Shown: positions 5,941-21,128 of the stretch, piece by piece
How positions within the stretch are numbered: the first letter of the stretch is position 1
Layout: the number at the start of each line of letters is the position of its first letter
DNA from: Arthrobacter agilis
Lineage (GTDB): Bacteria; Actinomycetota; Actinomycetes; Actinomycetales; Micrococcaceae
Length of the DNA: 64,000 nt
Direction of reading: 5' to 3'
Assembly (NCBI RefSeq): GCF_030816075.1
Contig: NZ_JAUSXO010000001.1
Span: forward strand, 186,001 to 250,000
The notes under the pieces: generated by a model
What the model saw: the letters and a program-made list of their open reading frames with translations, nothing else
Database searches by the model: none
What the model was told of the DNA's origin: nothing
Program-made: the position numbers and the translations under genes

Positions 5941-6050
5941 CCAGAATCAAGAGTTCCAACGCAAAACCCTGGTTTGTTGGACGGCAACCCTCTCGCTGTA
6001 GTGGGGTGCCCCAGGTGAGGATTCGGCCCGGGTTGAACCAGCCGGGCAAG
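5941..6050 (+). ncRNA. SAM riboswitch, SAM-IV-like
   Basis: The leader of the 6094 gene folds as expected for the SAM-I/SAM-IV clan. P1 pairs GAATC (5944-5948) with GATTC (6020-6024). P2 pairs CCAAC (5956-5960) with GTTGG (5976-5980), with an inner AAACC/GGTTT. The conserved core GGCAACC (5983-5989) and GGTGCC (6005-6010) flank P3. A downstream hairpin CCCGG/CCGGG (6027-6046) follows with a 10-base loop able to form the pseudoknot. The core resembles actinobacterial SAM-IV sequences I recall. Low SAM would release expression of the FMN monooxygenase. Confidence 0.78.
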
Positions 6051-6093
6051 TATGGCGCTTCCCCACGGCAGTGCCCCGACGTGAGGATCTCCC

Positions 6094-7482
6094 ATGCCCG
6101 CAGCACCGCGCCGTATCCGCTTCAACGCTTTCGACATGAACTGCGTCGGCCACCAGTCGCCCGGTCTCTGGCGCCATCCGGAGGACCAGTCGTGGCGCTA
6201 CAAGGACCTGCGCTACTGGGCAGATCTGGCGAAGACGCTCGAGAAGGGCCTGTTCGACGGCATCTTCATCGCGGATGTCCTCGGCACCTACGACGTCTAC
6301 GGCGGTTCCAACGAGGCGACCCTGCGGCAGGGTACGCAGACCCCGGTCAACGACCCGTTCCTGCTCGTGTCAGCCATGGCGCTCGTCACCGAGCACCTCG
6401 GCTTCGGTGTCACCGCCGGTACCGCCTACGAGCACCCGTATCCGTTCGCCCGCAGGCTCTCCACGCTGGACCACCTCACCAACGGCAGGGTCGGCTGGAA
6501 CGTGGTCACCGGCTATCTGCCCTCCGCCGCGCGCAACATGGGCAACGAGGACCAGCTCGAGCACGACGAACGCTACAACCACGCGGACGAGTACCTCGAG
6601 GTCCTCTACAAGCTGCTCGAGGGATCCTGGGAGGACGACGCCGTCGTGCGTGACCGCGAGAGCGGTGTCTTCACGGACCCGGCCAAGGTGCACGACATCA
6701 ACCACGACGGCACCTACTTCACCGTCCCGGGCATCCACCTCAGCGAGCCCTCGCCGCAGCGTACTCCCGTCATCTTCCAGGCCGGGGCGTCCTCCCGCGG
6801 GATCGCCTTCGCCGCAGGCAACGCCGAGGCGGTCTTCGTGGGTGCGCCGAGCAAGGAGATCCTGAAGGACGTGGTGCGGAAGATCCGAGACGCCGTCGAG
6901 GCCGCGGGGCGCGACCGCTACTCGGTGCGGATCTACACACTGCTCACCGTCATCACGGACGAGACGGAGGAGAAGGCCCGGGCGAAGCACGCCGAATACC
7001 AGAAGTACGTCAGCTACGAGGGAGCGCTCGTGCTGGTCTCCGGCTGGTTCGGCGTGGACCTGTCCGCCTACGGCCCCGACGAACCGCTCGGCAACGTGAA
7101 GTCGAACGCCATCCACTCCGCTGTCGCCACCTTCCAGAAGGTGAACGACGACGGCGCGCCGTGGACCGTGCGGGACATCGCCGAGTGGGCCGGGATCGGT
7201 GGGCTGGGTCCGCGGATCGTCGGGTCGGGCGAGCAGGTTGCCGACGAGCTCCAGGCATGGGTGGAGGAGACCGACGTCGACGGGTTCAACCTGGCCTACG
7301 CCATCACACCCGGCTCCTTCGAGGACGTCATCACCTACGTCGTCCCGGAGCTCCAGAAGCGTGGAGCCTATCCGACGGAGTACGCCGAGGGGACGTTGCG
7401 CCAGAAGCTGTTCGGCAAGGGTGACCGGTTGCCGGAGGAGCATCGGGGCGCGAGCTTCCGCCTCCAGCCGGTCCGTCCCTGA
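6094..7482 (+). CDS. FMN-dependent monooxygenase, NtaA/SnaA/DszA family
   Basis: 462 residues, a luciferase-like TIM barrel of the NtaA/SnaA/DszA group (family length about 440-470). Markers are NCVGHQSPGLWRHPEDQS near the N-terminus, FLVSAMA-type strands, a TNGRVGWNVVTGY loop, and PVIFQAGASSRGIAFAA for FMN binding. These enzymes use FMNH2 and O2 to split C-N or C-S bonds in compounds such as nitrilotriacetate, dibenzothiophene sulfone or dimethyl sulfide. No flavin reductase partner is in the window. GAGGA precedes the ATG. The SAM riboswitch in its leader points to a sulfur compound as substrate, by inference. Confidence 0.88.
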   Translation: MPAAPRRIRFNAFDMNCVGHQSPGLWRHPEDQSWRYKDLRYWADLAKTLEKGLFDGIFIADVLGTYDVYGGSNEATLRQGTQTPVNDPFLLVSAMALVTEHLGFGVTAGTAYEHPYPFARRLSTLDHLTNGRVGWNVVTGYLPSAARNMGNEDQLEHDERYNHADEYLEVLYKLLEGSWEDDAVVRDRESGVFTDPAKVHDINHDGTYFTVPGIHLSEPSPQRTPVIFQAGASSRGIAFAAGNAEAVFVGAPSKEILKDVVRKIRDAVEAAGRDRYSVRIYTLLTVITDETEEKARAKHAEYQKYVSYEGALVLVSGWFGVDLSAYGPDEPLGNVKSNAIHSAVATFQKVNDDGAPWTVRDIAEWAGIGGLGPRIVGSGEQVADELQAWVEETDVDGFNLAYAITPGSFEDVITYVVPELQKRGAYPTEYAEGTLRQKLFGKGDRLPEEHRGASFRLQPVRP

Positions 7483-7671
7483 CAGGGCGGGCGTCCGGTA
7501 TCCCGTCCGCTTGCGTCCGGACGGGCGCTGGGTCCACAGCTGCCGGATATGTCATGCAGCAGTCGGGAATAGGCATGCGCTGCGGGCTGAACACCTTCCC
7601 GTGGGTGGTCAGCACCCGCGACCGGGGACTAGCGTCGGAACCAAGACATCCGACGACCCGAAGGAGTTCCC

Positions 7672-8325
7672 ATGTCACGCGTAGCCATCATCGGTGGGCA
7701 CGGAAAAGTAGCGCTGCACCTCACGAAGATCCTCACGAGCCAGGGCCACCAGGTCAGTTCCATCTTCCGCAACCAGGACCATGCGTCCGACGTCGAGCAG
7801 CTGGGTGCCACCGCTGTGGTGGCGGACGTGTCCGAGCTGTCGGTCGCGCAGATGGCTGACGTCTTCCGCGGGCACGACGCCGTCGTGTGGTCTGCCGGTG
7901 CTGGAGGCAGCAGCCCCGAGGCCACGTACGCTGTGGACCGCGATGCAGCCATCCGTTCGATGGACGCCGCGCAGGAAGCCTCGGTCGGACGGTACGTCAT
8001 GGTGTCCTACCTCGGCGCGAGCAAGGATCACGGTGTGCCCGAGGACAACGGATTCTTCCACTACGCGGAGGCCAAGGCTGCTGCCGACGAGCACCTGCGG
8101 AACTCCGAACTCGCCTGGACGATCCTCGGCCCCGGTGCCCTCACCACTGATCCCGGTACGGGGAAGATCGAGGTCTCGGACAAGCCGCAGCAGGACTCAG
8201 TGGCTCGCGAGGACGTTGCGCATGTTGCCGCAGTCGTCCTCGGCAACCTCGGCACGGTGGACAAGACGATCCAGTTCAACAGCGGTGAGACGCCGATCGC
8301 CGAGGCTATCGAGGCTGCTCTCTAG
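7672..8325 (+). CDS. NAD(P)H-binding SDR, NmrA/YwnB-like
   Basis: 217 residues of the atypical SDR group. The N-terminal IIGGHGKVALHL is a GxxGxxG-type dinucleotide site, and the HYAEAKAAADEHL helix carries the Tyr-x3-Lys-like pair. GAAGGAG sits well before the ATG. It stands alone between the monooxygenase and the convergent DUF222/HNH gene. Related proteins act as NAD(P)H sensors or quinone/flavin reductases; which applies here is not visible. Confidence 0.85.
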   Translation: MSRVAIIGGHGKVALHLTKILTSQGHQVSSIFRNQDHASDVEQLGATAVVADVSELSVAQMADVFRGHDAVVWSAGAGGSSPEATYAVDRDAAIRSMDAAQEASVGRYVMVSYLGASKDHGVPEDNGFFHYAEAKAAADEHLRNSELAWTILGPGALTTDPGTGKIEVSDKPQQDSVAREDVAHVAAVVLGNLGTVDKTIQFNSGETPIAEAIEAAL

Positions 8326-8340
8326 TCCTCCGGTCTCGAT

Positions 8341-8371
8341 GCAGACGGCGCGGCATGATGGCGCCGTCTGC
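8341..8371. terminator. Stem-loop between convergent genes
   Basis: GCAGACGGCGC (8341-8351) pairs perfectly with GCGCCGTCTGC (8361-8371) around a 9-base loop. It lies in the 70-base gap between the NmrA-like gene and the DUF222/HNH gene and probably ends both transcripts. Confidence 0.8.
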
Positions 8372-8395
8372 ACAGCGTTGCCGGGCCCGGTGTTC

Positions 8396-10282
8396 CTAGT
8401 CCGGGTAGGTGTGGCCGGCGGGTTCGTCCTGTAGTTCCTGATGGACGATTCGTCCGGCCTGCCAATAGCTGTTCCGTCGGAGAGCGCCTGCCCGGCCAGG
8501 GTTCCCGGGTGCACGGAACCAGGGGATACCGTGCCGTGGTTCGACGGTCCAGGTGCCCTGGTGAATGACGTGGTGATGCCGGGTGCACAGCAGGACGCCG
8601 TTGCTGATGCTGGTTCTGCCGCCGCGGGACCAAGGGGTCATGTGGTGTGCTTCGCACCAGCTGGCGGGGATGGAGCAGTCCGGGAAGGCGCAGCCTTTGT
8701 CCCGGGCGACCAGGGCCCGGCGGAGGTGGGGTGGAAAGAGCCGTTGTGCCCGTCCGATGTCGAGGATCTGGCCGGTGCTGCCCAGAACGAGGGGGATGAG
8801 ATCGGCATCGCACGCCAGTGTCCGGATGGTCCTGGCACTGACCTGCTCGCTGAAGACTCCATGGCCGGCGTGACCCGGACGGCCGGCCTGCTGAGCGACA
8901 CCGGCGTGATCCGGACGGCCGGCCTGCTGAGCGACACCGGCGTGACCCGGATGACCCGCATGCTGAGTGAGGTCGGTCTGGCCGGCGCAGGGGGTGTCGC
9001 CGACATGACCGGCGCAACCGCAATGGTTGGTGCGTTGGATGTCGGCGACGAGGTCTTTGTAGTCGATGGTCACCATGACCTGGGGTCGGTGGCCGCCGGT
9101 CGCTGGGAGTCCTGTCGTGGTGAGAGCGATCTTGCAGGCGGTGACGAGGCCGTCGAGAAGCGACTGGGCCCTTGTCGGTGCAGGCGGATCACCCAAGGAA
9201 CCGGCTCCGGATCCGGTACCGATGCCTGATGCGGGTCCGAGTTCGGCGCCGGCCGTTGCAGCCCGCGATCGGCCGATCCCTGCAGCACCGAGGCCACCCG
9301 GGTCACCGTGCTCGTCCGCGGCGGCATCGGGGGCGGCATCGGGGCCAGTCCTGTGGGCTCGAGAAGTGCGGGGGTTGGCCGTCGAATTCATGACGGTGGC
9401 GAGGTGTTCGTACTGCTCGTCGGTGGCGCCGATCTCCAGGACGTGTAGACCGTGGCGTCGGCCCTTGAGGAAGACGCCCTGCCGCGCGTGCAGTACTTTC
9501 TCCGAGGGTTCCTGTCCGTCCTGATCGAGCGTGGCCTCCCACCGGCGAGCGACGACCCGGAGGGTGTCCTCGTCGGACTCCGCGGCCTGCTGCGTGAGGT
9601 GGTGTTCCATCGAGTCGAACTGCTGTGGTGTCGCGAAGGATTCCACCCGCTGCAACGCCTGACAGATGATGGTCGCGGCCCGGCCGCTGATCAGGCATGC
9701 ACCAGTTGCGGCGCCCAGTGCCTCCCGCCGGGGCGCCAGTACTGCTCCGGTCGGGGACATCCGGGGGAGCAGCATCTCTGCGAGCCCCAGCCGGCGTCTG
9801 GCTTCGGTCCGGCTGATGCCCAGCGTTGCGCGCAGGAAGTCCGCGCAATTGCGGAAGCCGCCGCTTGTCGGCTCGACGCACGTCGCATCGGCGAAGCCAG
9901 CTGACGCGACGCTGGACAGTGCTGCACCGGACAGGCCAGCCGATGCGGCGTCGGACGGAGCGGTACCGAACGACGCCGCACCAGCCGATGCGGTACCGGA
10001 TAGAGCGACGGTGGTGGAGCTGGTGGCCGTCGATGATGACGAGTGGGATTCATGCTCCGCGGCTGCTGCGTAGTGTTCCTCTGCCAGGCGGGCGGCAATG
10101 ATCTGCAACTGGTCCACGATCCGCGACGCGTGCTCGACGTCGATGATGAACTGCAACGCGTCCTGCCCGGACAGGACGCAGTCGTGTCGGCTCACGTCAC
10201 GAACCACGTCCGTGAGGGCGGCGCAGGCCGGACCCGCAGGACTCGGGGTCCGTGTGAACTGCTCGATCGGGGCGATGGCCAT
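8396..10282 (-). CDS. DUF222 / HNH endonuclease domain protein (copy 1)
   Basis: 628 residues. The N-terminal two-thirds is the DUF222 domain found in mycobacterial 13E12-type repeat proteins. A C-terminal HNH nuclease fold follows, with CAFPDCSIPASWCEAHHMTPW and LLCTRHHHVIH carrying the metal and catalytic His. Between them lies a low-complexity insert built of 12-residue repeats (AGRPDHAGVAQQ), absent from the second copy at 58559-60268. The start has no Shine-Dalgarno but a TAAAAT six bases upstream, suggesting a leaderless mRNA. Role unknown; related genes are often DNA-damage induced. The two copies are near-direct repeats 50 kb apart. Confidence 0.88.
   Translation of the reverse strand: MAIAPIEQFTRTPSPAGPACAALTDVVRDVSRHDCVLSGQDALQFIIDVEHASRIVDQLQIIAARLAEEHYAAAAEHESHSSSSTATSSTTVALSGTASAGAASFGTAPSDAASAGLSGAALSSVASAGFADATCVEPTSGGFRNCADFLRATLGISRTEARRRLGLAEMLLPRMSPTGAVLAPRREALGAATGACLISGRAATIICQALQRVESFATPQQFDSMEHHLTQQAAESDEDTLRVVARRWEATLDQDGQEPSEKVLHARQGVFLKGRRHGLHVLEIGATDEQYEHLATVMNSTANPRTSRAHRTGPDAAPDAAADEHGDPGGLGAAGIGRSRAATAGAELGPASGIGTGSGAGSLGDPPAPTRAQSLLDGLVTACKIALTTTGLPATGGHRPQVMVTIDYKDLVADIQRTNHCGCAGHVGDTPCAGQTDLTQHAGHPGHAGVAQQAGRPDHAGVAQQAGRPGHAGHGVFSEQVSARTIRTLACDADLIPLVLGSTGQILDIGRAQRLFPPHLRRALVARDKGCAFPDCSIPASWCEAHHMTPWSRGGRTSISNGVLLCTRHHHVIHQGTWTVEPRHGIPWFRAPGNPGRAGALRRNSYWQAGRIVHQELQDEPAGHTYPD
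8865..8972 (-). repeat. Three 36-bp tandem repeats inside DUF222/HNH copy 1
   Basis: Units at 8865-8900, 8901-8936 and 8937-8972. The first two differ by a single base, the third is more diverged. The period is a multiple of three, so each adds 12 residues of His/Gly/Ala/Gln-rich linker (about AGRPDHAGVAQQ). Likely a recent slippage expansion in the hinge between DUF222 and HNH. Confidence 0.9.
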
Positions 10283-10288
10283 GTCCCA

Positions 10289-10312
10289 ATTTTATCGAAC
10301 ACGCGTACTATT
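10289..10312 (-). promoter_or_regulatory. LexA-box-like element with -10, DUF222/HNH copy 1
   Basis: A 24-base stretch identical to 60274-60297 except for one base. It holds TCGAAC-N4-GTACTA (10295-10310), matching 10 of 12 positions of the actinobacterial SOS box TCGAAC-N4-GTTCGA. Read on the minus strand it continues into TAAAAT, six bases before the ATG, the geometry of a leaderless promoter. LexA repression is inferred from the match and from known SOS control of related 13E12-family genes. Confidence 0.7.
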
Positions 10313-10457
10313 CTCGAGGCGAGGGATCGATTGTGGAGGAACAGTCGACCCTCGTTATCCACATAGGACGCAGAGCTCCTACCCCATCGAAGTGATGCGG
10401 TGTCCCGAGCCTCCGGACGTCGGCTGACCCCGGAAGCCCGCCCGCTTCAAGCGGATC
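10313..10457. other. Non-coding spacer upstream of DUF222/HNH copy 1
   Basis: The first 60 or so bases, including TTGTGGAGGA and AGTCGA, resemble the region upstream of the second DUF222/HNH gene (60298-60345), so the duplicated unit includes the promoter region. I see nothing else here. Confidence 0.5.
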
Positions 10458-10670
10458 AGCCGACGCCGCAATCGTGCCTACCCAGCCATTCCGCCGCCGT
10501 CGTGCCTACTCAGCCGCCGACGCCGTCGCGTCCCTTCAGCCGACGCCGTCGCGTCCCTTCAGCCGACGCCGCCGTCGTGCGCCTTCAGCCGTCCAACCGG
10601 CCGGCCGTCATGCCTACTCAGCCGGCCCGCCGTCGTGCCCACTCAGCCGCCGCCGCCGTCGTGCCCACTC
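10458..10670. repeat. Imperfect tandem repeat array in the intergenic spacer
   Basis: About eight head-to-tail copies of a 23-33 base unit of the form CAGCCG-variable-CCGTCGTGCCTACT. The constant parts are CAGCCG and GTCGTGCC(T/C)ACT; the middle varies in length. The array begins about 175 bases upstream of the DUF222/HNH copy 1 start and ends at the stop codon of the DszC-like gene. It is too irregular for CRISPR and has no coding potential I would trust. Possible roles are a protein-binding array, a transcription-end structure or simple slippage. Confidence 0.8.
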
Positions 10671-11892
10671 AGCTCCCCGTCGACGTCGTCCCCGGAGCAT
10701 TTCCCGCCCGCCACACGAACTCCGGCACGGTCCCGTTGATCTCCCAGTCGCCGACGATCCGCGACTTGTAGATCACGGGGTTGTGCGACGAGACGGTACG
10801 GGCGTTTCGCCAGTGCCGGTCCAGCTGGAGACCCTTGCGGGTCGACGATGCGCCGAGCGCGTTGAAGATCGTCGAGGCAGCACGCTGGACCTGCTCCGTC
10901 ACCACGATCTGCGCCTGCGAGGACGCGAACTCCACTGCTATCGCTGCGGAATCCGCGTCCTCGCGCGGGAGGTCGAGGTGTGCCTCGTAGGCCTCCTGCA
11001 CCAGGTCGGCCACCCGGAGTGCAGCAGCCTCGGACGCGAAGGCGAGCGCCGAGACTTCCCCCACCACCTGCTGCACCTGGATGTCCTCGCTGGGTCTCGT
11101 CCCGTTCCCGTGGCTGAAGGTGCGGGTCCTTCCGCGCACCTCCGCAGCGACGTCCCGGACAGCTGCGCGGGCGATTCCCGCAAGCGTCGCGACATGGATG
11201 AGCTGGTAGACACCCGTGTCGTACGGCGGGTGGTCCGTCTCGATGATGACGTCCCCGGCCGGCACGAGGACGTTCCGGAAGACGGACGTGCCGCTTGCGG
11301 TCAGGCGCTGGCCGAACCCGTCCCAGTCGTCGACGACCTCGACACCCGGCGCATCCCGCCGCACGAGGGCGATCACGTCCTCACCGTCGTCCGTCCGCGC
11401 ACCCGTCTGGATCCAGTCGGCGTAGAGGCTCCCGGTCGTGTAGTACTTGGTGCCGTCGACGCGGTAGTCGTCGCCGTCGCGCGTGATGGTGGTGCTGACA
11501 CCGCCGACGGGGACGGGCCCGGTCTCGGTCCAGGCGTTGCCCAGCACCGCTCCCTCGGCGACGCGACGCAACCAGACGGTGTCGTTCGCGTAGAGCCGGT
11601 CCTCGACGAAGGCGATGTGGGACCGGAGGGCCTGCGCGAGGTTGGACTCCGCGGCGGCGAGTTCGATCAGCAGCCGGAAGAACTGCGGAGCACTGACGCC
11701 TCCACCGCCGAGCTCGACGGGCACGCGCAGCGCGGTGAAGCCTGCATCGGCCACCTGGCGCACCTGGCGGTGCAGCAGGATCCGCTCGTCCTCTCGCTGG
11801 GCGGCGCCGGCCGCGATGTCCTCGAACAGGGGGCGGAAGCGTTTCGCGAGCGCCCCGTAGTTGACGGGTGCGGTGATCGTGTCGGCGGTCAT
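10669..11892 (-). CDS. DszC/SfnB-like flavin monooxygenase (acyl-CoA dehydrogenase fold)
   Basis: 407 residues. The acyl-CoA dehydrogenase fold is clear: GFTALRVPVELGGGGVS at the N-terminus, the GNAWTETGP flavin strand, YRVDGTKYYTTGSLYADWI and a C-terminal DRHWRNARTVSSHNPVIYK. The last, with no catalytic Glu of the dehydrogenases, is typical of the DszC/SfnB/thermophilic-desulfurisation subgroup that uses FMNH2 and O2 on sulfur compounds. Its ATG overlaps the stop of the ABC ATPase by four bases, making it the last gene of a five-gene operon under a SAM-I riboswitch. Substrate unknown; an organosulfur compound imported by the transporter is inferred. Confidence 0.85.
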   Translation of the reverse strand: MTADTITAPVNYGALAKRFRPLFEDIAAGAAQREDERILLHRQVRQVADAGFTALRVPVELGGGGVSAPQFFRLLIELAAAESNLAQALRSHIAFVEDRLYANDTVWLRRVAEGAVLGNAWTETGPVPVGGVSTTITRDGDDYRVDGTKYYTTGSLYADWIQTGARTDDGEDVIALVRRDAPGVEVVDDWDGFGQRLTASGTSVFRNVLVPAGDVIIETDHPPYDTGVYQLIHVATLAGIARAAVRDVAAEVRGRTRTFSHGNGTRPSEDIQVQQVVGEVSALAFASEAAALRVADLVQEAYEAHLDLPREDADSAAIAVEFASSQAQIVVTEQVQRAASTIFNALGASSTRKGLQLDRHWRNARTVSSHNPVIYKSRIVGDWEINGTVPEFVWRAGNAPGTTSTGS

Positions 11893-13763
11893 CGGTCGGC
11901 TCCTTCTTCCTTCTGTGTGGTCGGGGTGGCGGTGGCGACGGCGGCGGGCCGGCGCTCGGGCATGTCCGGCACGGCGTCGAGCAGTGCCCGCGTGTAGTCC
12001 GTGGTGGGAGCGGCGAAGATCGCCTCGGCGCTGCCCGACTCGACCACACGGCCGTCCTTGAGGACCAGGACGTCGTCACTCACGTGGTGGATGACGCCGA
12101 GGTCGTGGCTGATGAACAGGTAGCTCAGTCCGAGCTGCTCCTGCAGGTCCGCGAGGAGGTCGAGGACCTGCGCCTGGATCGAGACGTCGAGGGCGGAGAC
12201 GGGTTCGTCGAGCAGCAGGACCCGTGGCTGGAGCGCGAGGGCTCGGGCGATCGCCACGCGCTGGCGTTGCCCGCCCGAGAGGGTGAGCGGCCTCCGCTCG
12301 ATGAGGTCGAGCGGCAGGCCCACCTGATCGAGGAGTTCGGCCGCGCGGTCCCGCCGCTCGCCCGGAGCACCGACGGATCCGGCGTCCAGGGCATCCGTGA
12401 CGACCCGGCCGACGCTGAAGCGGGGGTCGAAGGAACTGAGCGGGTCCTGGTTGACGAGCTGGATGTCGGGCCGGTGCGGGCGGCGGAGATCCTCGGTCAC
12501 GGCAGCCGCAGCGGTGGCGCCTCGTACTCGACGGCGGCCGGCGAGCGGGGAGACGCCGGAGGCGCCGGAAACGCCTGAGACGCCGGATGCCAGTCCCTCC
12601 CGTCGCTCCCCGCGATCGGTGAGGGCGCCGGTGGTGCCCCCGACGTGCCCTACCCACGGCAGCCCACCGAGGGTGACCGTCCCGGCGTCGGGCTCGGTGA
12701 GGCCGAGCGCGATGCGCGCCGTCGTCGACTTCCCCGATCCCGATTCCCCGACGATGCCGAGCGTCTTCCCTGCCGCGAGGATGAAGGAGACGTCGTCGAC
12801 CACGGTGCGGCGCGTGCCGTCCGGGGAGGCGTACGTCTTCACGAGATTGCGGGCCTCCAGCGCCGGTGCGTCCGCGGAGAAGGCCGAGAGCCGCGCGGCC
12901 CGGGACGCCACCCGGACCCGCGGGACGGCCGAGAGCCGGGTGCCCTTGCCTGCCGCGGAGGGAACGGCGTCGATCAGCTGGCGTGTGTACTCGTGGCGCG
13001 GGTTGCCCAGCACCTCGGCGGCCCGCCCGGATTCGACGATGCGCCCGTGCTGCAGAACGGCGATCTCGTCCGCGAGATGGCTGACGACGGCGAGGTCGTG
13101 CGAGATGAAGATGAGCCCGCGCCCCTGCTCCTTGAGCCCGGCCAGCAACTCGAGGATCTGGGCCTGCACTGTCGCGTCGAGCGCCGTGGTGGGCTCGTCG
13201 GCGATCACGAGCTGCGGATCGAGCACCGTCGCCTGGGCGATCAGCGCACGCTGGCGGAGGCCGCCGGACAGTTCCCCGGAGCGCTGCCGCGCACGGACCT
13301 CGGGATCGGGGATCCCGGCGTCGCGCAGGGCGGCGTACACCCGCTCCTGGCGCTCCGCCTTGCCACGGACACCGTGGGCACGGAGGGCCTCGTCGATCTC
13401 CTGACCCACGGTGCGCAGGGGGTCGAGGGACACGAGCGCGTCCTGCAGCACGTAGCCGATGTCCTTGCCGCGCAGGCCACGCCAATGCCGCTCCGACAGA
13501 CGGGTGGCGTCGCGGCCGAGGACCTCGAGGCGATCGGCGGACACCCGTGCATTGGAGGCATTGAGCCCCACGAGCGTGCGGGCCGTGACGGTCTTGCCGG
13601 AGCCCGATTCACCCACGAGGGCGAGCGCCTTGCCGGGAGCGAGGGCCAGTGAGACGTCGCGGACGACGTCGACGACGCCGCGCGGGGTGCTGAAGGAGAC
13701 GTTCAGGTTGTCGATGGCGAGCAGCGGCTGCTGCGTGGGCTTGGTTCCGGTGGTGTCAGTCAT
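11889..13763 (-). CDS. ABC transporter, fused double ATPase (DppD-DppF type)
   Basis: 624 residues holding two complete nucleotide-binding domains. Domain 1 has Walker A GESGSGKT near residue 45, signature LSGGLRQRALIAQA and VIADEPTTALD. Domain 2 has GESGSGKST, LSGGQRQRVAIARA and LLLDEPVSALD. The linker contains a Gly/Ser/Val-rich repeat stretch (about residues 370-400). The start (MTDTTGTK) is taken at 13763 because upstream residues are out-of-frame permease. Energises uptake through the two permeases just upstream in the same operon. Confidence 0.92.
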   Translation of the reverse strand: MTDTTGTKPTQQPLLAIDNLNVSFSTPRGVVDVVRDVSLALAPGKALALVGESGSGKTVTARTLVGLNASNARVSADRLEVLGRDATRLSERHWRGLRGKDIGYVLQDALVSLDPLRTVGQEIDEALRAHGVRGKAERQERVYAALRDAGIPDPEVRARQRSGELSGGLRQRALIAQATVLDPQLVIADEPTTALDATVQAQILELLAGLKEQGRGLIFISHDLAVVSHLADEIAVLQHGRIVESGRAAEVLGNPRHEYTRQLIDAVPSAAGKGTRLSAVPRVRVASRAARLSAFSADAPALEARNLVKTYASPDGTRRTVVDDVSFILAAGKTLGIVGESGSGKSTTARIALGLTEPDAGTVTLGGLPWVGHVGGTTGALTDRGERREGLASGVSGVSGASGVSPLAGRRRVRGATAAAAVTEDLRRPHRPDIQLVNQDPLSSFDPRFSVGRVVTDALDAGSVGAPGERRDRAAELLDQVGLPLDLIERRPLTLSGGQRQRVAIARALALQPRVLLLDEPVSALDVSIQAQVLDLLADLQEQLGLSYLFISHDLGVIHHVSDDVLVLKDGRVVESGSAEAIFAAPTTDYTRALLDAVPDMPERRPAAVATATPTTQKEEGADR

Positions 13764-13765
13764 GG

Positions 13766-14665
13766 TCAGACCTCTGCTTCGAGTCGGCGCTGCAGGTGGT
13801 GGCCCACCACGGTGGTGGTCAGCGCGGCGAGGGTGATGAAAATGCCGGGGAAGGCCGCGATCCACCAGGCGACCTGGAGGTAGTTGCGGCCGTCGGCGAG
13901 CATGGCGCCCCACTCGGCGGCGGGCGGCTGGGCGCCGAGACCGAGGAAGCTCAGCGACGAGGCCCAGACGATGGCCTGGCCGATCCCGAGCGTCACGAGG
14001 ACGAAGAGGGGTCGCGCCACGTTGGGGACGATCGTGTGCCAGAGGATGTGCGACGTCGACCGGCCGAGCGCGAGGGCTGTTTCCACATACGGAGCCGCGA
14101 CCACCTGAAGGGTCTGGGTGCGGAGCATCCTTGCATAACCAGGGGCCGAACCGACCCCGACGGCGATGGCGGCGGTGACGACGCCGGTGCCGGACACCGC
14201 GATGACGATCAGGGCGAGGAGCAGGCCCGGGAAGGCGAACAGGATCTCCACGAAGCGGCAGATCGCCGAGTCCAGCCACTTGCCGGAGACACCGGCGGTG
14301 ATGCCGAGGGCACCGCCGAGGATCAGTCCGATGGCGGTGGCGGCGAGACCGAGCAGCAGGGACTGGCCCGTGCCGGCGATCACGCGGGAGAAGACATCAC
14401 GGCCGTTCTGGTCCGTGCCGAACAGATGGAGGCCGTCGGGTGACTGGAAGGCGTTGGCGGGGTCGATCGCGAAGGGATCCTGCCGCAGGAAGACCGACGG
14501 CGCGATGGCGGCGAGCACCAGGAAGGCGAGGAGCGCAGCGGCGATCCAGACACCGATGGGTGTATTGCGGACCAGGCGTCCGGCACGGGAAGGAGCAGGT
14601 ACCGACGGCGATGCAGCCGCGGTGCCGCCCTCCGCCGTCGCGGTGGGGTCGAGGGTGAGGCTCAT
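13766..14665 (-). CDS. ABC transporter permease (DppC/OppC type)
   Basis: 299 residues: a hydrophobic anchor after the N-terminal tail (GVWIAAALLAFLVLAAIAPS), then five helices and the EAA-like loop ALALGRSTSHILWHTIVPN. The GTDQNGRDVFSRVI motif before the second helix is a hallmark of DppC. Start MSLTLDP at 14665 overlaps the DppB stop as ATGA; two bases separate its stop from the ATPase start. Works as a heterodimer with the upstream permease in the cytoplasmic membrane. Confidence 0.92.
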   Translation of the reverse strand: MSLTLDPTATAEGGTAAASPSVPAPSRAGRLVRNTPIGVWIAAALLAFLVLAAIAPSVFLRQDPFAIDPANAFQSPDGLHLFGTDQNGRDVFSRVIAGTGQSLLLGLAATAIGLILGGALGITAGVSGKWLDSAICRFVEILFAFPGLLLALIVIAVSGTGVVTAAIAVGVGSAPGYARMLRTQTLQVVAAPYVETALALGRSTSHILWHTIVPNVARPLFVLVTLGIGQAIVWASSLSFLGLGAQPPAAEWGAMLADGRNYLQVAWWIAAFPGIFITLAALTTTVVGHHLQRRLEAEV

Positions 14666-15663
14666 GCTGCGGATCCCTTCGGGTTCGTACGGGGGTCGAC
14701 CACGCGGTAGAGGACGTCCACCACGAGGTTCACGAGGATGTAGACCGCGGCGATGAGAAACACCACGGCCAGGGTGATGGGCAGGTCGCGGTTCACGATG
14801 GCGTCCACGAGGGACCGGCCGAGGCCTGGTCGGGCGAAGATGATCTCGGCGACGACCGCTGAACTCACCAGCGAGCCGACGGCCCACGCGGAGAGCGTGA
14901 GCCCGGGGAGGATCGCGTGGCGCAGGGCGTGGGTGATGCGGACGGCAGTGTCGCTCAGGCCGCGGGCACGTGCACTCAGGACGAAGGGCTGGGCGAGGGC
15001 GTCCTCGAAGGAGGACCGAGTGACCTGGGCGATGAACCCTGCGAGCGGGACCGCCAGGGAGAGTGCAGGCAGGACGAGCGACCGGACGCCGTCGTTGCCG
15101 GCGACCGGGAACCAGCCGAGGGTGACCGCGAAGACCACGGCGAGCATGATGCCCACCCAGAACTGGGGGAGGGAGGCGAAGAACACCTCGACAGCACGCC
15201 CGGCACCGTCGAGCACGCGCCCGCGGCCCACCGTCAGGAGCGTGAACGCCAGCGCGATCACCCAGGCGAACACGAGGGCGAGCCCGGCCAGCTGCAGCGT
15301 GGGCAGGATCTGCGGGCCGATGATCTCCAGGACCGGGACCTTGAAGATGTAGGACACCCCGAAGTCGCCGGTGAGCAGGTTCCCGAGGTAGGAGAGGTAC
15401 TGGACGAGGACGGGCTGGTCGAGCCCGTACTCGGCCCGCACCGCCGCGACCGTCTCGGCCGACGGCGAGGATCCCGCCCCGCCGAGGATCGCGGTGATCG
15501 GATCACCCGGTGTGAGGCGGAGGACGAAGAACGTGAGGGTCACGGCCGCCCAGAGGACGAAGAGGCTGCCGGCTGCACGTTTTGCGATGACCTTGCCGGC
15601 GGTACCCGCCGTCGCCGTCGTGCGGGGTGCTGCGCTGAGGGAATCGAGGGACTGGGTGCTCAT
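14662..15663 (-). CDS. ABC transporter permease (DppB/OppB type)
   Basis: 333 residues: first helix FVLWAAVTLTFFVLRLTPGDP (the RLTPGDP is diagnostic of the DppB family), further helices and the EAA loop ARARGLSDTAVRITHALRHAILP. Start MSTQSLD at 15663 overlaps the binding-protein stop by four bases. Pairs with the DppC-like permease. The family moves peptides, nickel, or other small solutes; the setting here suggests a sulfur-containing solute. Confidence 0.92.
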   Translation of the reverse strand: MSTQSLDSLSAAPRTTATAGTAGKVIAKRAAGSLFVLWAAVTLTFFVLRLTPGDPITAILGGAGSSPSAETVAAVRAEYGLDQPVLVQYLSYLGNLLTGDFGVSYIFKVPVLEIIGPQILPTLQLAGLALVFAWVIALAFTLLTVGRGRVLDGAGRAVEVFFASLPQFWVGIMLAVVFAVTLGWFPVAGNDGVRSLVLPALSLAVPLAGFIAQVTRSSFEDALAQPFVLSARARGLSDTAVRITHALRHAILPGLTLSAWAVGSLVSSAVVAEIIFARPGLGRSLVDAIVNRDLPITLAVVFLIAAVYILVNLVVDVLYRVVDPRTNPKGSAA

Positions 15664-17309
15664 TCTGAATCCACCGCCGTGACGTCGTAGAGGTAGGGGA
15701 GGGACAGGCTCGGTTCGAGGGTGAGGTTCCCGTAGCGGTCGCTGCGCAGCGCCACCTGGCTGGCCTGGTTGTAGAGCGGCAGCTGCAGGGCGCTGTCACT
15801 CACGATCTGCTGTGCCTGGTAGTAGAGGTCCTCGCGCTCGGAGGGGTCGTCCGTGGCCAGGGCGTCGTTGAGGATGCCGTCCAGCTCCGGGTTGCGGAAG
15901 CCCGAACCGTTCGGGACGAAGCCCGCCGATTCGGTGTATTCCGAGGAGAAGACGATCCGCAGCACGTCGGCGGTGTTCGTGTTCCAGTAGTCGGCGCGGA
16001 GGTCGTACTCGAAGTTGTTGCCGAGCTCGCTGACGGTCGCGCCGTCACCGTTCTCGATCAGCACCTCGAAACCGGCCTTCTTCGCCGTCGCCTGGATCTG
16101 CGTGACGAGCGCCTGGTGCGCGGTGGGCCACGCGCCCGGCGTGTAGGGGAAGTGCACCGTCAGGCGCCGGCCGTCCTTCACGCGGTAGCCCTCGTCGTCG
16201 CGCCCGGTCCAGCCGGCCTCGTCGAGCAGGCGCGCCGCCTCGTCGGGGTCCGGGTCGTAGACGTGCTCGAAGTCGGGGGAGTAGAAGCCCGTGGTGGAAC
16301 TCAGAGGTCCACCGGCCCGGGTCACGGTACCGAAGTACACGCTGTTGATACCCGCGTCCACGTAGGCGCTGCGCAGGAAGGCCTTGCGGACGTCCACGTC
16401 GTCGAAGGGTGCCCGTGTGGTGTTGAGGATCAGGTTGGTCGGGTTGCCCGGCCGGTCCTGCAGGATCAGTTCGACGTTCGGGTCGGCCTCGGCCTCGTCG
16501 AAGTGCACCGACGGCATGAGGTCGAGGGCGTCCACCTGGCCCGCCCTCAGGAGGCCGTAGCGGGTGGAGTCCTCGGGGACGATCCGCCACTCGATCTTCT
16601 CGATGTGTGCCGGCCCCTCGTGCTGGGCGAACGGCGGGGCGGAGTTGTAGTCCTCGTTACGTACCAGGCTGACCTTGGACTGCGGCACGTAGTCGACGAT
16701 CCTGTAGGGCCCGGTCCCCACGGGTGAGTTGCAGTTCTCGGCCTGCGGCCGCTTGAGGGCCTCGGGTGATTCGATGCCGAGGAACGGCTGGGCGAGCACC
16801 TCGAGGAACGCGGCGTACGGGCGGTTGAGCGTGACGACCGCGGTGGTCTCGTCCACCACCTCGGTGCCCACATAGGGCTTGAGGTAGCCGCCGGCCGTGC
16901 CGGACTGGGTGTCCGGGTCGATCATGTGGTCGAGGTTGGCCTTGACCGCCTCCGCGGTGAGCTTGGTCCCGTCGGTGAACCAGACGTCGTCGCGCACGGT
17001 GAAGGTGTAGGTGAGGCCGTCCTCGGACACCGACCAGTCCGTGGCGAGCCAGGGATGGATGGCGCCCTCGCTGTCCTGGGACACGAGGGAGTCGAGGTAG
17101 TTCGCCGCGATGGACGCCTGCGGCATGTCGCCGTTGACGTGGGGGTCAAGGCAGGAGATGTCCTTGCCGGTGGCGAAGACGAAGGTGTCGTCCTCGCTCG
17201 CGGCGGCTGATCCTCCGCAACCGCTCGTGGTGAGCACCAGCCCCGCCGCGACGGCGAGCAGGGCGAGGGTGCGGGGTGGGCGGGAGGTGCTGGGGCTTGC
17301 TGTTTCCAC
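15660..17309 (-). CDS. ABC transporter substrate-binding lipoprotein (SBP family 5)
   Basis: 549 residues. The N-terminus is a lipoprotein signal: Arg-containing start, hydrophobic LALLAVAAGLVL, then the lipobox LTTSGC. The SBP_bac_5 signature regions follow (DGLTYTFTVRDDVWFTDGTKL, NSPVGTGPYRIVDYVPQSK). I prefer the GTG at 17309, which has CAGGAG six bases upstream; the ATG at 17327 lacks a ribosome site. First gene of the operon, just downstream of a SAM-I riboswitch. It captures the solute outside the membrane. Confidence 0.9.
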   Translation of the reverse strand: METASPSTSRPPRTLALLAVAAGLVLTTSGCGGSAAASEDDTFVFATGKDISCLDPHVNGDMPQASIAANYLDSLVSQDSEGAIHPWLATDWSVSEDGLTYTFTVRDDVWFTDGTKLTAEAVKANLDHMIDPDTQSGTAGGYLKPYVGTEVVDETTAVVTLNRPYAAFLEVLAQPFLGIESPEALKRPQAENCNSPVGTGPYRIVDYVPQSKVSLVRNEDYNSAPPFAQHEGPAHIEKIEWRIVPEDSTRYGLLRAGQVDALDLMPSVHFDEAEADPNVELILQDRPGNPTNLILNTTRAPFDDVDVRKAFLRSAYVDAGINSVYFGTVTRAGGPLSSTTGFYSPDFEHVYDPDPDEAARLLDEAGWTGRDDEGYRVKDGRRLTVHFPYTPGAWPTAHQALVTQIQATAKKAGFEVLIENGDGATVSELGNNFEYDLRADYWNTNTADVLRIVFSSEYTESAGFVPNGSGFRNPELDGILNDALATDDPSEREDLYYQAQQIVSDSALQLPLYNQASQVALRSDRYGNLTLEPSLSLPYLYDVTAVDSE

Positions 17310-17410
17310 GCGTGGCTCCTGAATCATCGCCCGATGGAGGGTGATACAGGTCAGCCAGCAGTCGCCCGGGCGTGCCGGAGCACGGGAGGGGCAGACCAAC
17401 GAAAGCTTGT

Positions 17411-17505
17411 AGCTTCTCCATCGGTCCTGGCAGTAGCACCGTTCCCCGTTGCTACACGGGGAGGGTTGCTGCGGCGTCGTCGATCCAGGTCTCTCGGCCG
17501 CTCGG
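17411..17505 (-). ncRNA. SAM-I (S-box) riboswitch
   Basis: Read on the minus strand this leader shows the actinobacterial S-box layout. AGAGACCTGG and a TCGACGACGCCG turn are followed by the core GCAACC (17464-17469), then a P3 stem CCCCG/CGGGG (17457-17461 with 17443-17447), then GGTGCTA (17434-17440), CCAGG and CGATGGAG. The order and conserved blocks match SAM-I aptamers. It lies about 100 bases before the binding-protein start; a hairpin at 17371-17384 (CGTGC/GCACG) may form the expression platform. High SAM would switch the transporter/monooxygenase operon off. Confidence 0.87.
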
Positions 17506-17560: not shown

Positions 17561-17866
17561 TCATATTCGGTCACGCGGCGCTGCGGGACGGCCCTCCCCG
17601 GTTCCCGAGAGCCGCACCAGGAGTTCCACCTTCCGGCCGAGCGCGAAGCCGCTGAGGTCCGGCAGCCGCACCAGGTACTCGTCCTCGACGAGCAGGTTCA
17701 GGAGCCGGTAGGTGGTCGCCTTCGGCAGCCCGAGATTGCGGCTCACCTCCAGTCCGGTGACCCCGGGACCGCAGCGCGCCACCTCCTCCAGCACTGCGAG
17801 TGCGCTGCGGACCGCCTTGGGCTGGCGGGCCCGCAGGTCGACGTCGTCGGGCCGGTCCGCTGTCAT
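17561..17866 (-). CDS. HTH-only IclR-like protein
   Basis: 101 residues holding just the IclR-type winged helix: AVRSALAVLEEVARCGPGVTG, then EVSRNLGLPKATTYRLLNLL (recognition helix) and the wing YLVRLPDLSGFALGRKV. Normal IclR regulators carry about 150 further residues of effector domain, missing here. Start MTADRPDD overlaps the stop of the permease gene as ATGA, so it is made with the permease. It could be a truncated relic or a minimal DNA-binding protein; the coupled start argues for a working gene. Confidence 0.8.
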   Translation of the reverse strand: MTADRPDDVDLRARQPKAVRSALAVLEEVARCGPGVTGLEVSRNLGLPKATTYRLLNLLVEDEYLVRLPDLSGFALGRKVELLVRLSGTGEGRPAAPRDRI

Positions 17867-19389
17867 GGGACATCGCCCGCGGCAGTGTTCCGACCACCTC
17901 CGAGCACGGCGTCCTGGGTGGGCACGTCGTAGAGCCCGAGGACGGGTTCTGCCGGCCTGCGGCGGCGGTGCACCAGGAACCAGAGCAGCGCGGTGGCCAG
18001 CAGGACGCAGTAGATCCAGCCGCTCGCGCTCCGGCCTGCACCTGCGAGGGTGATCCGATAGGCGACCAGGGCGCCCGCGAGTGCCACCGAGGCGACCCCG
18101 GCGGCGAGCGCCGTGCGGAGGGTCAGTTCGCCGATGCGCCGCAGGAAGACCGGTGCCGTGCAGCACGCCAGCAGGTACGCGGTGACGTAGGCGGTGGCGG
18201 CGGTACCGAGGAGCTTGTTCATCGCCTCGCCCGTTCCGAAGCCGAGCAGGATCAGCGCCGCCGGTACGACCGTCACCACGGGCATGGCGGCCAGCACGGC
18301 GTGGACCGGCGTCTGGAACCGCGGGTGTGCACACCCGAGCCAGGCGGGCAGGACATCCTCCCGGCCCATGGTCAGCAGCACCCGGGCCAGTGCGGTGGCG
18401 CACGCGAGCGTGCACGCGAAGAAGGACAGGGCGGCACCGGCGTCGAGCAGGGGGACCAGCCACGGGAGGCCCGCGGCCCGCATGGCGGGGCCGAAGACCT
18501 GCGACCCGTCGTCGTCCGCCGGAAGTGCGGACTGCAGCAGGACCAGCTGGGCGAGGGCGGCGACGACGTAGAGCACACCCCCACCGGCAGCACTCCAGAG
18601 CAGCACGCGGGGAATGGTCCGCAGCGGTCTGCGCGTCTCGGCACCTAGGACGGTGGCGCTCTCGAAGCCCACGAAGGCCATCAGGGCCAGGACCGCGCCC
18701 GTCGCCAGGCCGCTCAGGCCCGGATCCGCCGCCGTGGCCCGGCTGCCGACGTCGGGCAGGGCATCCCGGGGGATCGCGAGGAACACGAGCACGATGGGCA
18801 CCACGAGGACCAGGAGGGCCGCTCCCTCGGCGACGAGCATCGCGAGGGAGGACAGGCGGAGACCCCTGAGCAGCAACCAGGTGCAGGTCCCGCCGACCGC
18901 GAGGATGACGCCCGCCATCACCGGATCGGCGAGCTGCGGCCGACCGGACGAGGCGAGCAGGTCCGAGACGTGCAGTGCGCAGCCGATCAAGGCGAACATC
19001 GCGATGCAGGCGTAGCCGATGATCAGCGAGCAGCCCGTCGCGAGGGCGACCAACGGCCGCCACCTGCCCGTGCTGCCCAGGGCCTGCGCCACGTAGCTGT
19101 ACAGCGAGCCGGCTGCGCCCATGCGCCGCGCGTACTGGCCGAGCGTGTAGCCGATCAGCAGGACCAGGACCGTCGCGCAGAGGATCGACGGGACTGCGGA
19201 GCGGCCGGCGGCGGCCGTGACCATGGCGGGCATGGTCACGGCCGCGGCGACCGGGGCCATCGCGGCGACCGACTGCGCGAGGGCATCGACGGGGCCGAGA
19301 CTGCGCCGGGCCAGGCCGTGCAGCGGAGAGATGTCCGCCAGCCCGGTGACCGGAGGCGGGCTGGCGACGGCGTCCTGCAGAGGGTTCAT
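17863..19389 (-). CDS. APC-superfamily amino acid/amine permease
   Basis: 508 residues, about 12 to 14 hydrophobic helices. The first helices carry VTMPAMVTAA and the QYARRMGAAGSLYSYVAQALG block common to APC permeases, and GFESATVLGAETRRPLRTIPR is the conserved loop after helix 6. Start at 19389 (MNPLQDAV), preceded by GAAAGGC; the extra 39 residues upstream are not membrane-like. Divergent from a second APC permease and coupled to the IclR-like gene. Likely imports an amine or amino acid. Confidence 0.87.
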   Translation of the reverse strand: MNPLQDAVASPPPVTGLADISPLHGLARRSLGPVDALAQSVAAMAPVAAAVTMPAMVTAAAGRSAVPSILCATVLVLLIGYTLGQYARRMGAAGSLYSYVAQALGSTGRWRPLVALATGCSLIIGYACIAMFALIGCALHVSDLLASSGRPQLADPVMAGVILAVGGTCTWLLLRGLRLSSLAMLVAEGAALLVLVVPIVLVFLAIPRDALPDVGSRATAADPGLSGLATGAVLALMAFVGFESATVLGAETRRPLRTIPRVLLWSAAGGGVLYVVAALAQLVLLQSALPADDDGSQVFGPAMRAAGLPWLVPLLDAGAALSFFACTLACATALARVLLTMGREDVLPAWLGCAHPRFQTPVHAVLAAMPVVTVVPAALILLGFGTGEAMNKLLGTAATAYVTAYLLACCTAPVFLRRIGELTLRTALAAGVASVALAGALVAYRITLAGAGRSASGWIYCVLLATALLWFLVHRRRRPAEPVLGLYDVPTQDAVLGGGRNTAAGDVP

Positions 19390-19572
19390 GAAGTGCCTTT
19401 CCCCCGCGAACAGTAGGTGGGCCGTGTTGCCCCGATGTTTCACGACGCGTGTATGACGGCGCAGGTGGCACCCGGACGCCTCGGACGCGCGGCGCGGGAG
19501 TCTCATTTGGAACGACGACAGCTTTTACCGGGCGATGATCGGGCCGAAACGGGGCGTTGGAAGCATCGCTGC

Positions 19573-21033
19573 ATGGCTATTTCCCCCACCGGCACGGCGT
19601 CCGCTTCCGCCGTCGGCACCCAGCGCCTCACCGGCACCCTGGGCGCCGGATCCATCGTGTTCATGGTCGTCGCGGCGGCATCGCCGCTGACCGTCATCGG
19701 CGGCGCCGCGCCGCTCGGAATCCTGCTGGGCAACGGGCCGGGGTATCCCAGCATGTACGCCGTCGCGGGGCTCATCCTCCTCCTGTTCTCCGTGGGCCTG
19801 AGCGCCATGAGCCGGGTGGTCCCCAGGCCCGGCGCATTCTTCACGTATGTGGGCTACGGGCTGGGCAGGAAGCAGGGCCTGGGAGCGGCGTTCCTCGCCC
19901 TGCTCACCTACACGACCATCCAGGTCGCGGTGTACGGCTATCTCGGCTTCAGCCTGAACCTGGCACTGACCAACCTCGGACTGCCGGAGCTGCCGTGGTG
20001 GCTCTACGCGCTCGCGATGATCGCTTTCGTCGGCATCCTCGGCTACCGGCACATCGAGCTGAGCTCGAAGGTGCTCGGTGTCCTGCTGATCGCCGAGATC
20101 GGGATCGTTCTGGTCCTCGCGGCGGTCGTCATGGCCGCCGGCGGCGCCGAAGGCCTGTCCGCGGCGCCGTTCACCCCGGTCAACATCTTCTCGGGCGCAC
20201 CGGGGGTGGGCCTCATGATGGCGATCGCCGGATTCATCGGCTTCGAGGCCACCGCGATCTTCCGCGACGAGGCCAAGGACCCCGAGAAGACCATCCCGCG
20301 GGCAACCTATGCCGCCGTCATCCTCATCGGCCTGTTCTACACCTTCGCCGGCTGGGCACTCGTCATGGCCTGGGGTCCGTCCCAGGTGGTGCAGGCCGCG
20401 GCGGAGGATCCGGGAGCGATGATCGTGATCACCGCCGCCAACTACCTCGGGAACGCGGGCGCCATCGCCATCAACGTACTGCTCCTGACGAGCCTGTTCG
20501 CCTGCGTGCTGTCCTTCCACAACGTCATCACCCGCTATCAGCACTCGATGGCCGCCGCCGGCACCATGCCCCAGCTCCTGGCCGACGTGCACCCCCGCCA
20601 CCTCTCGCCCCACAAGTCGTCGCTCACGCAGACGCTCACCGCCGGCGTCCTGATCGTGGTCTTCGCCCTGCTGCGCATGGACCCCGTGCTGCAGGTCTTC
20701 ACCTGGCTCTCGGGCATCGCCACCCTCGCGATCGTGGTGCTCATGGCCCAGACGTGCCTGGCGGTCGTGGCCTACTTCGGCCGCCACTCCGAACTCACGG
20801 GCGGCCCCTGGCGGACGCGGATCGTGCCGGTCCTGGCACTGGTCGGACTCGTCGCCGCAGGCGCCGTGATCGTCGCGTACTTCCCGATGCTCGTGGGCGG
20901 CGGCTGGGGCCTGAGCCTGGCCCTGATGGCCACCATCCCGCTCACCATGGTGGCCGGCCTGCTGCGAGGCCGCTATCTGGAACGCCAGGACGGCGCCGCC
21001 TACGCACGCATCCCGGACGCCATCGCCGGCTAG
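19573..21033 (+). CDS. APC-superfamily permease upstream of amine oxidase
   Basis: 486 residues with about 12 helices. GSIVFMVVAAASPLTVIGGA opens helix 1 and FIGFEATAIFRDEAKDPEKTIPRATY is the APC loop after helix 6. The ATG at 19573 is preferred to an upstream frame start at 19417 since the first 52 residues are not membrane-like. The copper amine oxidase gene begins 95 bases downstream in the same direction, so an amine is the likely substrate. Confidence 0.88.
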   Translation: MAISPTGTASASAVGTQRLTGTLGAGSIVFMVVAAASPLTVIGGAAPLGILLGNGPGYPSMYAVAGLILLLFSVGLSAMSRVVPRPGAFFTYVGYGLGRKQGLGAAFLALLTYTTIQVAVYGYLGFSLNLALTNLGLPELPWWLYALAMIAFVGILGYRHIELSSKVLGVLLIAEIGIVLVLAAVVMAAGGAEGLSAAPFTPVNIFSGAPGVGLMMAIAGFIGFEATAIFRDEAKDPEKTIPRATYAAVILIGLFYTFAGWALVMAWGPSQVVQAAAEDPGAMIVITAANYLGNAGAIAINVLLLTSLFACVLSFHNVITRYQHSMAAAGTMPQLLADVHPRHLSPHKSSLTQTLTAGVLIVVFALLRMDPVLQVFTWLSGIATLAIVVLMAQTCLAVVAYFGRHSELTGGPWRTRIVPVLALVGLVAAGAVIVAYFPMLVGGGWGLSLALMATIPLTMVAGLLRGRYLERQDGAAYARIPDAIAG

Positions 21034-21128
21034 GGCCGGACGACGGCGACCCACCCGCCGCGCCCGCGGCGCGGCCCGCACCCCCACTGACCCCCCCCGC
21101 TATCCCACCGTAAGGAACTGACGAAGAC

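Follow-up and report, generated by a model that had tools for sequence, protein, structure and literature searches.

What is an importer of the peptide type doing in one operon with a flavin monooxygenase, behind a riboswitch for S-adenosylmethionine (SAM)? The question is raised by a stretch of 64,000 nucleotides (hereafter the window), which covers positions 186001-250000 of the one-contig, 3.86 Mb genome of Arthrobacter agilis (G000). Its minus strand carries, from 17309 to 10669, five contiguous genes encoding a lipoprotein of solute-binding protein family 5 (SBP5), two permeases, a fused double ATPase, and a monooxygenase of the DszC/MsuC fold. A preliminary description, made from the DNA letters alone, had connected this operon with a second SAM-led monooxygenase unit nearby and had predicted the import and oxidative desulfurisation of an organosulfur compound. 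We consider it probable, by a fair margin of belief, that the genes form a sulfur-scavenging module induced at low SAM, in which the ATP-binding cassette (ABC) importer and two flavin monooxygenases act on an organosulfur compound.

The operon, its aptamers and its proteins

The preliminary description had placed a SAM-I aptamer upstream of the operon and had named a covariance search as its check. This search confirmed the aptamer, with a score of 50.9 bits against a gathering score of 44.4 (E 9.4e-9); its 3' end lies 105 nt ahead of the GTG start of the SBP gene at 17309. The second aptamer, of class SAM-IV, lies 11.5 kb from the SAM-I aptamer and precedes a gene in convergent orientation that encodes a monooxygenase of the NtaA/DmoA family, hereafter the partner gene. 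It scores far above its gathering score of 38 (Table 1). Two SAM classes thus do stand near two flavin monooxygenases, with both aptamers above the Rfam gathering scores.

The genes are as tightly packed as had been described: there are 4-base overlaps between SBP and permease B, between the two permeases, and between ATPase and monooxygenase, and a 2-base gap between permease C and ATPase. Domain models likewise bear out the identities given to the five products. The importer shows SBP_bac_5, two BPD_transp_1 domains, and ABC_tran with oligo_HPY, i.e., the composition of an SBP5 ABC importer of the Opp/Dpp/Nik type (domain and family scans used a longer start than that of Table 1 for the SBP and the second permease, and a shorter one for the ATPase).

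Table 1. Features of the SAM-I-led operon and of the partner unit (window coordinates).
Feature	Position	Strand	Evidence
SAM-I (S-box) aptamer, RF00162	17415..17513	-	full-length covariance match, orthologous leaders
Expression platform, proposed translational OFF switch	17310..17424	-	complementarity and conserved 28-nt block
SBP family 5 lipoprotein (peptide/nickel/glutathione-binding type)	15660..17309	-	domains, family models, fold
Opp/Nik-type permease B	14662..15663	-	domains, family models
Opp/Nik-type permease C	13766..14665	-	domains, family models
Fused double ABC ATPase (Dpp/Opp type)	11889..13763	-	domains, family models
DszC/MsuC-fold (SfnB-like) flavin monooxygenase	10669..11892	-	family models, fold, alignment
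SAM-IV aptamer, RF00634, leader of the convergent partner unit	5945..6058	+	covariance match, 89.7 bits
NtaA/DmoA-family flavin mononucleotide (FMN) monooxygenase, partner gene (P0006)	6094..7482	+	family model, solved-structure match

The monooxygenase of the operon has an acyl-CoA-dehydrogenase fold in the domain scan and is closest by sequence to the SfnB and DszC models. Neither name is exact, since it scores below both cut-offs (266.5 bits against 430.9 for the SfnB equivalog TIGR04022, and 109 against 850 for the DszC model NF043015); a relative from Pseudomonas also stays below the cut-off of TIGR04022, at 264.6 bits. A Foldseek search with the predicted structure (mean predicted local distance difference test score, pLDDT, 83.3) returned TdsC, MAB_4123, MsuC, and DszC as nearest folds. 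These fill rows 1-27 of the best 50 matches listed, many being chains of the same entries. Residues H92, T153, and H370 are invariant in an alignment of 23 rows and fall on a His, a Ser, and a His in both TdsC and DszC, positions that we take to be catalytic in DszC. By its modelled fold and this His, Ser/Thr, His set, the enzyme is of the DszC/MsuC type. The partner protein scores 568.6 bits with the NtaA/DmoA family model TIGR03860 (cut-off 279.7). Its best solved match is the dimethyl-sulfide monooxygenase DmoA (6ak1, 575 bits), followed at 499 bits by 3b9n, an entry that itself reads alkane monooxygenase and that is presumably LadA. As LadA also scores high, these matches do not settle the substrate of the partner enzyme. 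We know of no SAM control of DmoA.

Switching in the leader would depend on three segments. The 3' strand of P1, CCGAUGGAG at 17424-17416, is a perfect 9-nt complement of a distal segment, CUCCAUCGG at 17339-17331, a length that is reached in 3 of 200 shuffled sequences; a proximal anti-P1 segment ends in GUUGGUC. The distal segment contains a CUCC able to pair with the GGAG of the Shine-Dalgarno sequence (AGGAG, 17320-17316). Orthologues of the operon in A. agilis UMCV2, Pseudarthrobacter sp. PS3-L1 (G106), and a third genome (G171) are preceded by the aptamer in the corresponding position, and the 28-nt block that runs from the distal segment to the Shine-Dalgarno is identical in 4 leaders. 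Given the complementarity, this pairing potential, and the conserved block, we propose a translational OFF switch, which the computed folds described below do not bear out; control may also be exerted at a level other than translation.

Linkage and SAM control across relatives

To follow the operon across the family, we used 30 relatives, i.e., the genomes whose P0001 matches ranked highest out of 197 genomes of the family. Covariance searches gave 155 SAM-I and 173 SAM-IV matches in the per-genome tallies, with part of the first-look candidates of each genome scored, and 150 matches of each class were listed and used. A listed aptamer lies on the same strand within 8 kb upstream of at least 57 of the 73 SfnB-like matches in these relatives, where 0.7 would be expected from the fraction of sequence covered. 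The same holds for at least 62 of the 92 matches to luciferase-like monooxygenases (LLM), with 0.8 expected. The association of aptamers with SfnB-like genes is therefore not due to chance, and the link between the SAM-led operon and organosulfur monooxygenases that the preliminary description had drawn is borne out.

The importer is part of this association. An SBP5 gene is found within 8 kb upstream of 28 of the 73 SfnB-like matches (two rows share one SBP gene, in G055), and among these 28, 24 have an LLM within 3 kb and 16 have a listed aptamer directly before the SBP gene. When SBP5 genes are sorted by their neighbours, a listed SAM aptamer precedes 15 of the 27 that have an SfnB-like gene no more than 12 kb away and none of the 95 that lack such a neighbour. 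The operon type looks rare: of 394 genomes sampled across the class, 2 had the SBP at E 1e-130, the genome of the window being one of them.

The claimed tie between the operon and the partner unit is upheld by gene order. Pseudarthrobacter sp. PS3-L1 has the same SAM-I-led operon directly convergent with a SAM-IV-led DmoA-like gene, the stop codons of the two units being ~0.12 kb apart, compared with 3.2 kb in the window. In other relatives a gene of the partner's family is part of the operon: it lies between ATPase and monooxygenase in A. castelli (G004), Arthrobacter sp. VKM Ac-2550 (G175), G035, G062, G122, and G163, and after the monooxygenase in G085, G105, and G136. A single SAM-IV aptamer precedes importer, NtaA/DmoA-type, and SfnB-like genes in a row in A. 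castelli and likewise in a paralogue of the operon that the window's genome carries (G000:C1:1493573-1501815), which consists of SBP5, two permeases, ATPase, an NtaA/DmoA LLM, and an SfnB-like enzyme, with proteins 38-51% identical to those of the window (tblastn). These in-line genes indicate that the importer operon and the partner unit belong together.

The presence of two SAM classes so close together had been called unusual. This did not hold: 15 of the 30 relatives have SAM-I and SAM-IV within 12 kb of each other among the matches listed, in a sample chosen for good monooxygenase matches. The classes also appear to be exchanged between the two units: SAM-I leads the importer operon and SAM-IV the DmoA-like gene in the window, and in A. 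castelli the reverse is observed. Among the 12 orthologues of the operon, three have SAM-I (G000, G106, and G171) and one has SAM-IV (A. castelli). The partner LLM has 29 orthologues at 69% identity or more, of which 28 have a listed upstream aptamer (SAM-IV in 7 and SAM-I in 21, with an SfnB-like gene in between in eight of the 21); in the remaining one (G075) the contig begins just upstream. The best tree of 28 LLM orthologues and one distant outgroup row requires the SAM-IV label to change twice. Only one change is demanded by the branches with good support, and a single switch of class is therefore possible.

The match to the SfnB-like gene is interrupted or shortened in two orthologous operons. 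In A. agilis UMCV2 a pseudogene could be ruled out, as a run of N interrupts the gene. In G122 (contig C31) the match spans residues 256-398 only, and the gene may thus be broken.

Sulfur metabolism and competing explanations

The Arthrobacter agilis genome appears, by its gene content, unable to use sulfate. PF01507, the family of CysH and CysD, has no match in this genome and is present in all 14 control genomes; G099 and G116, which belong to the same genus, lack it as well. The genome thus shows no reductase for phosphoadenosine or adenosine phosphosulfate (PAPS/APS). For sulfite reductase, the sole NIR_SIR match is NirB (893 bits, cut-off 578), an identification made by family model here and from frame length in G004, G099, and G116. 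In the sulfate-using relative G085, CysH, CysD, and a NirA/CysI-type reductase are encoded side by side. By the PF01507 and NIR_SIR tests, 12 of the 30 relatives look unable to assimilate sulfate. Nine of them have no PF01507 match, a single weak one (31.6 bits) was found in G007, and CysD is the only member in G004 and G035, the genome of G035 being 95% complete; six of the 12 are without a match to either family (G055, G080, G100, G106, G171, and G194). An aptamer precedes the orthologous operon in 4 of 5 sulfate non-users and 0 of 7 users (hypergeometric, 0.010), with all seven users in one genus and kinship uncorrected.

Seven SAM aptamers were found in the genome of the window, and four lead flavin monooxygenase units: SfnG, the DmoA-like gene, the paralogous importer-LLM-SfnB operon, and the operon of the window. 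The other three stand before metY-metX, an importer that resembles MetQ/MetN but stays below the family cut-offs, and an amino-acid-type ABC importer. Because of these four units and the lack of recognisable sulfate reduction, the operon probably serves organosulfur scavenging by a sulfate non-user. In this model, SAM bound to the SAM-I leader would lower expression of the operon, with translation as the most likely level. A drop in SAM would lead the cell to make the SBP5 importer for an organosulfur compound together with the DszC/MsuC-fold monooxygenase, which would act on the imported compound. The neighbouring SAM-IV-led DmoA-like enzyme would be its partner, like the in-line NtaA/DmoA gene of related operons. 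We infer this direction and level of switching, the import, the chemistry, and the joint action of the two oxygenases from the genes and their arrangement.

The product could enter metabolism as sulfite or as a thiol. Classical oxidative desulfurisation, in which the SfnB-like enzyme would oxygenate the sulfur and a desulfonase would free sulfite to supply the synthesis of cysteine, on the pattern of the Sfn/Msu/Ssu or Dsz routes, is possible and, in our view, clearly less likely than the general scavenging role. The proximity of the monooxygenase to TdsC, DszC, and MsuC in fold and sequence speaks for it, as does SfnG, a dimethylsulfone monooxygenase encoded behind the genome's other SAM-I (L119:11158-12430, minus strand; TIGR04021, 619.6 bits, cut-off 383). 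SfnG would give methanesulfinate, leading to sulfite, and its control by SAM-I argues for the sulfite route and conflicts with a thiol product. However, this one-contig genome yielded no sulfite reductase and no CysH/CysD homologue, although an unrecognised reductase may exist, and no SsuD homologue was found at E 1e-60. As no sulfite reductase was found, simple release of sulfite would seem to lead nowhere. DmoA-type enzymes release thiols and MetY can take methanethiol, which makes a thiol product attractive; that it would feed MetY is a guess, for which the lack of a sulfite reductase speaks. We hold the full version of this idea as tentative and rather doubtful: in bacteria of the Arthrobacter type in which the reduction of sulfate and sulfite has been lost, two flavin monooxygenases and an SBP5 importer, under two swapped SAM classes, would form an undescribed route that strips an imported thioether to a thiol, which MetY would turn into methionine.

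An ordinary importer of peptides or nickel chelates, with the monooxygenase co-transcribed without a common substrate, is unlikely. The family models of the importer mostly carry peptide, nickel, and glutathione names, and NikA, GsiB (YliB), and DppA are among the nearest folds of the SBP. On the other hand, the arrangement with SfnB-like and NtaA/DmoA genes is found repeatedly (28 of the 73 matches, 24 with LLM), and SAM aptamers are missing from the list for all 95 SBP5 genes far from SfnB-like genes. We also give very little credit to a decayed SAM-I aptamer without regulatory effect: the score exceeds the gathering score by just 6.5 bits, and two outer P1 pairs and one further pair are non-standard in the Rfam alignment, yet the match is full-length, is conserved in four leaders along with the 28-nt block, and has scores comparable to those of many other SAM-I matches of the family.

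Several observations weigh against the scavenging module. The predicted fold of the SBP (mean pLDDT 80.9) is equally like NikA, GsiB (YliB), and DppA. Since nickel, glutathione, and peptide binders are returned alike, the fold leaves the ligand undecided, and the SBP, which scores 198.9 bits with TIGR04028 (KPN_01854; cut-off 468.5), could bind peptides, nickel chelates, or glutathione. A SAM-I-led SfnG fits badly with a genome that has no recognisable sulfite reductase. Eight of the 12 orthologous operons (seven in one genus, and G035) have no detectable aptamer, even as a weak match at E up to 1, so that SAM control is not universal. The 30 relatives were selected for good monooxygenase matches and are not a random sample. 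Lastly, the computed folds of the leader, which take no account of ligand, tertiary contacts, or transcription order, do not bear out switching. The free minimum (-90.9 kcal/mol) contains the proximal anti-P1 hairpin and has the Shine-Dalgarno paired; it is also paired when P1 is imposed (-86.5 kcal/mol), and the proposed ON pairing (-83.6 kcal/mol, 7.3 above the free minimum) leaves it paired with letters of the aptamer.

Known systems and surroundings of the operon

Each part of the system is of a known kind. The Sfn/Msu oxygenases of Pseudomonas (SfnB, SfnG, and MsuC) have the same enzyme folds and are regulated by protein activators. We fetched 73 proteobacterial loci for their SfnB-like match. 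Their SfnB-like genes are 48-57% identical to that of the window, and in 36 of the loci there is an NtaA/DmoA gene of at least 50% identity; the SBP and permeases of the window had no match at E 1e-10 in flanks of up to 10 kb (shorter where a contig ends). In Gordonia alkanivorans 135, also an actinobacterium with an SfnB-like gene and the same kinds of proteins, SfnB, acyl-CoA dehydrogenase, and NtaA-DmoA proteins are reported to increase when dibenzothiophene replaces sulfate (PMC11852219); that paper never uses the word riboswitch, and no SBP5 importer is mentioned in its available text.

From the published text available, the closest known logic is the SAM-riboswitch sulfur response of Ca. 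Pelagibacter ubique (SAR11). Like the window's genome, it has no assimilatory sulfate reduction and places SAM riboswitches on reduced-sulfur genes, including metY (PMC5069961). These are SAM-II and SAM-V, which control methionine-forming genes, and further organosulfur transporter genes are not activated, according to the same available text (PMC5069961), whereas in the window's genome importers and flavin monooxygenases lie behind SAM-I and SAM-IV. These two classes have been grouped in a single superfamily, some variants of which combine traits of the two (PMC2864571, available text). Among Actinobacteria, a survey of riboswitch regulons lists Corynebacteriaceae and Mycobacteriaceae; Arthrobacter is not named anywhere in its main text, as available (PMC3766115). 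Our literature search, mostly of papers accessible without subscription and partly of excerpts, returned no account joining SAM riboswitches with operons of SfnB/DmoA-type monooxygenases in Arthrobacter.

What is new is a genome without recognisable sulfate reduction in which four of the seven SAM aptamers found lead monooxygenase units. The observations suggest that Micrococcaceae have a large SAM-riboswitch regulon devoted to organosulfur import and oxidation. No description of it came up in the literature searched, and in the window's genome it is tied to the loss of sulfate assimilation. It makes sulfur acquisition by such soil bacteria directly testable, by asking which sole sulfur sources need the operon. 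The orthologous genes with SAM-I or SAM-IV also provide a natural series for studying how one riboswitch class is replaced by another.

Finally, we looked at the surroundings of the operon. The 3.2 kb between the two convergent units (7483-10668) contain an unnamed frame of 217 codons (7672-8325) and a DUF222-HNH gene (8396-10282). Degenerate tandem repeats of 23-26 bp occupy 10456-10693, directly after the monooxygenase stop codon. Upstream of the operon, at 17863-23123, lie genes for an amino acid permease and a primary-amine oxidase (838 bits) and a frame without family match, which suggests a separate amine-use cluster.

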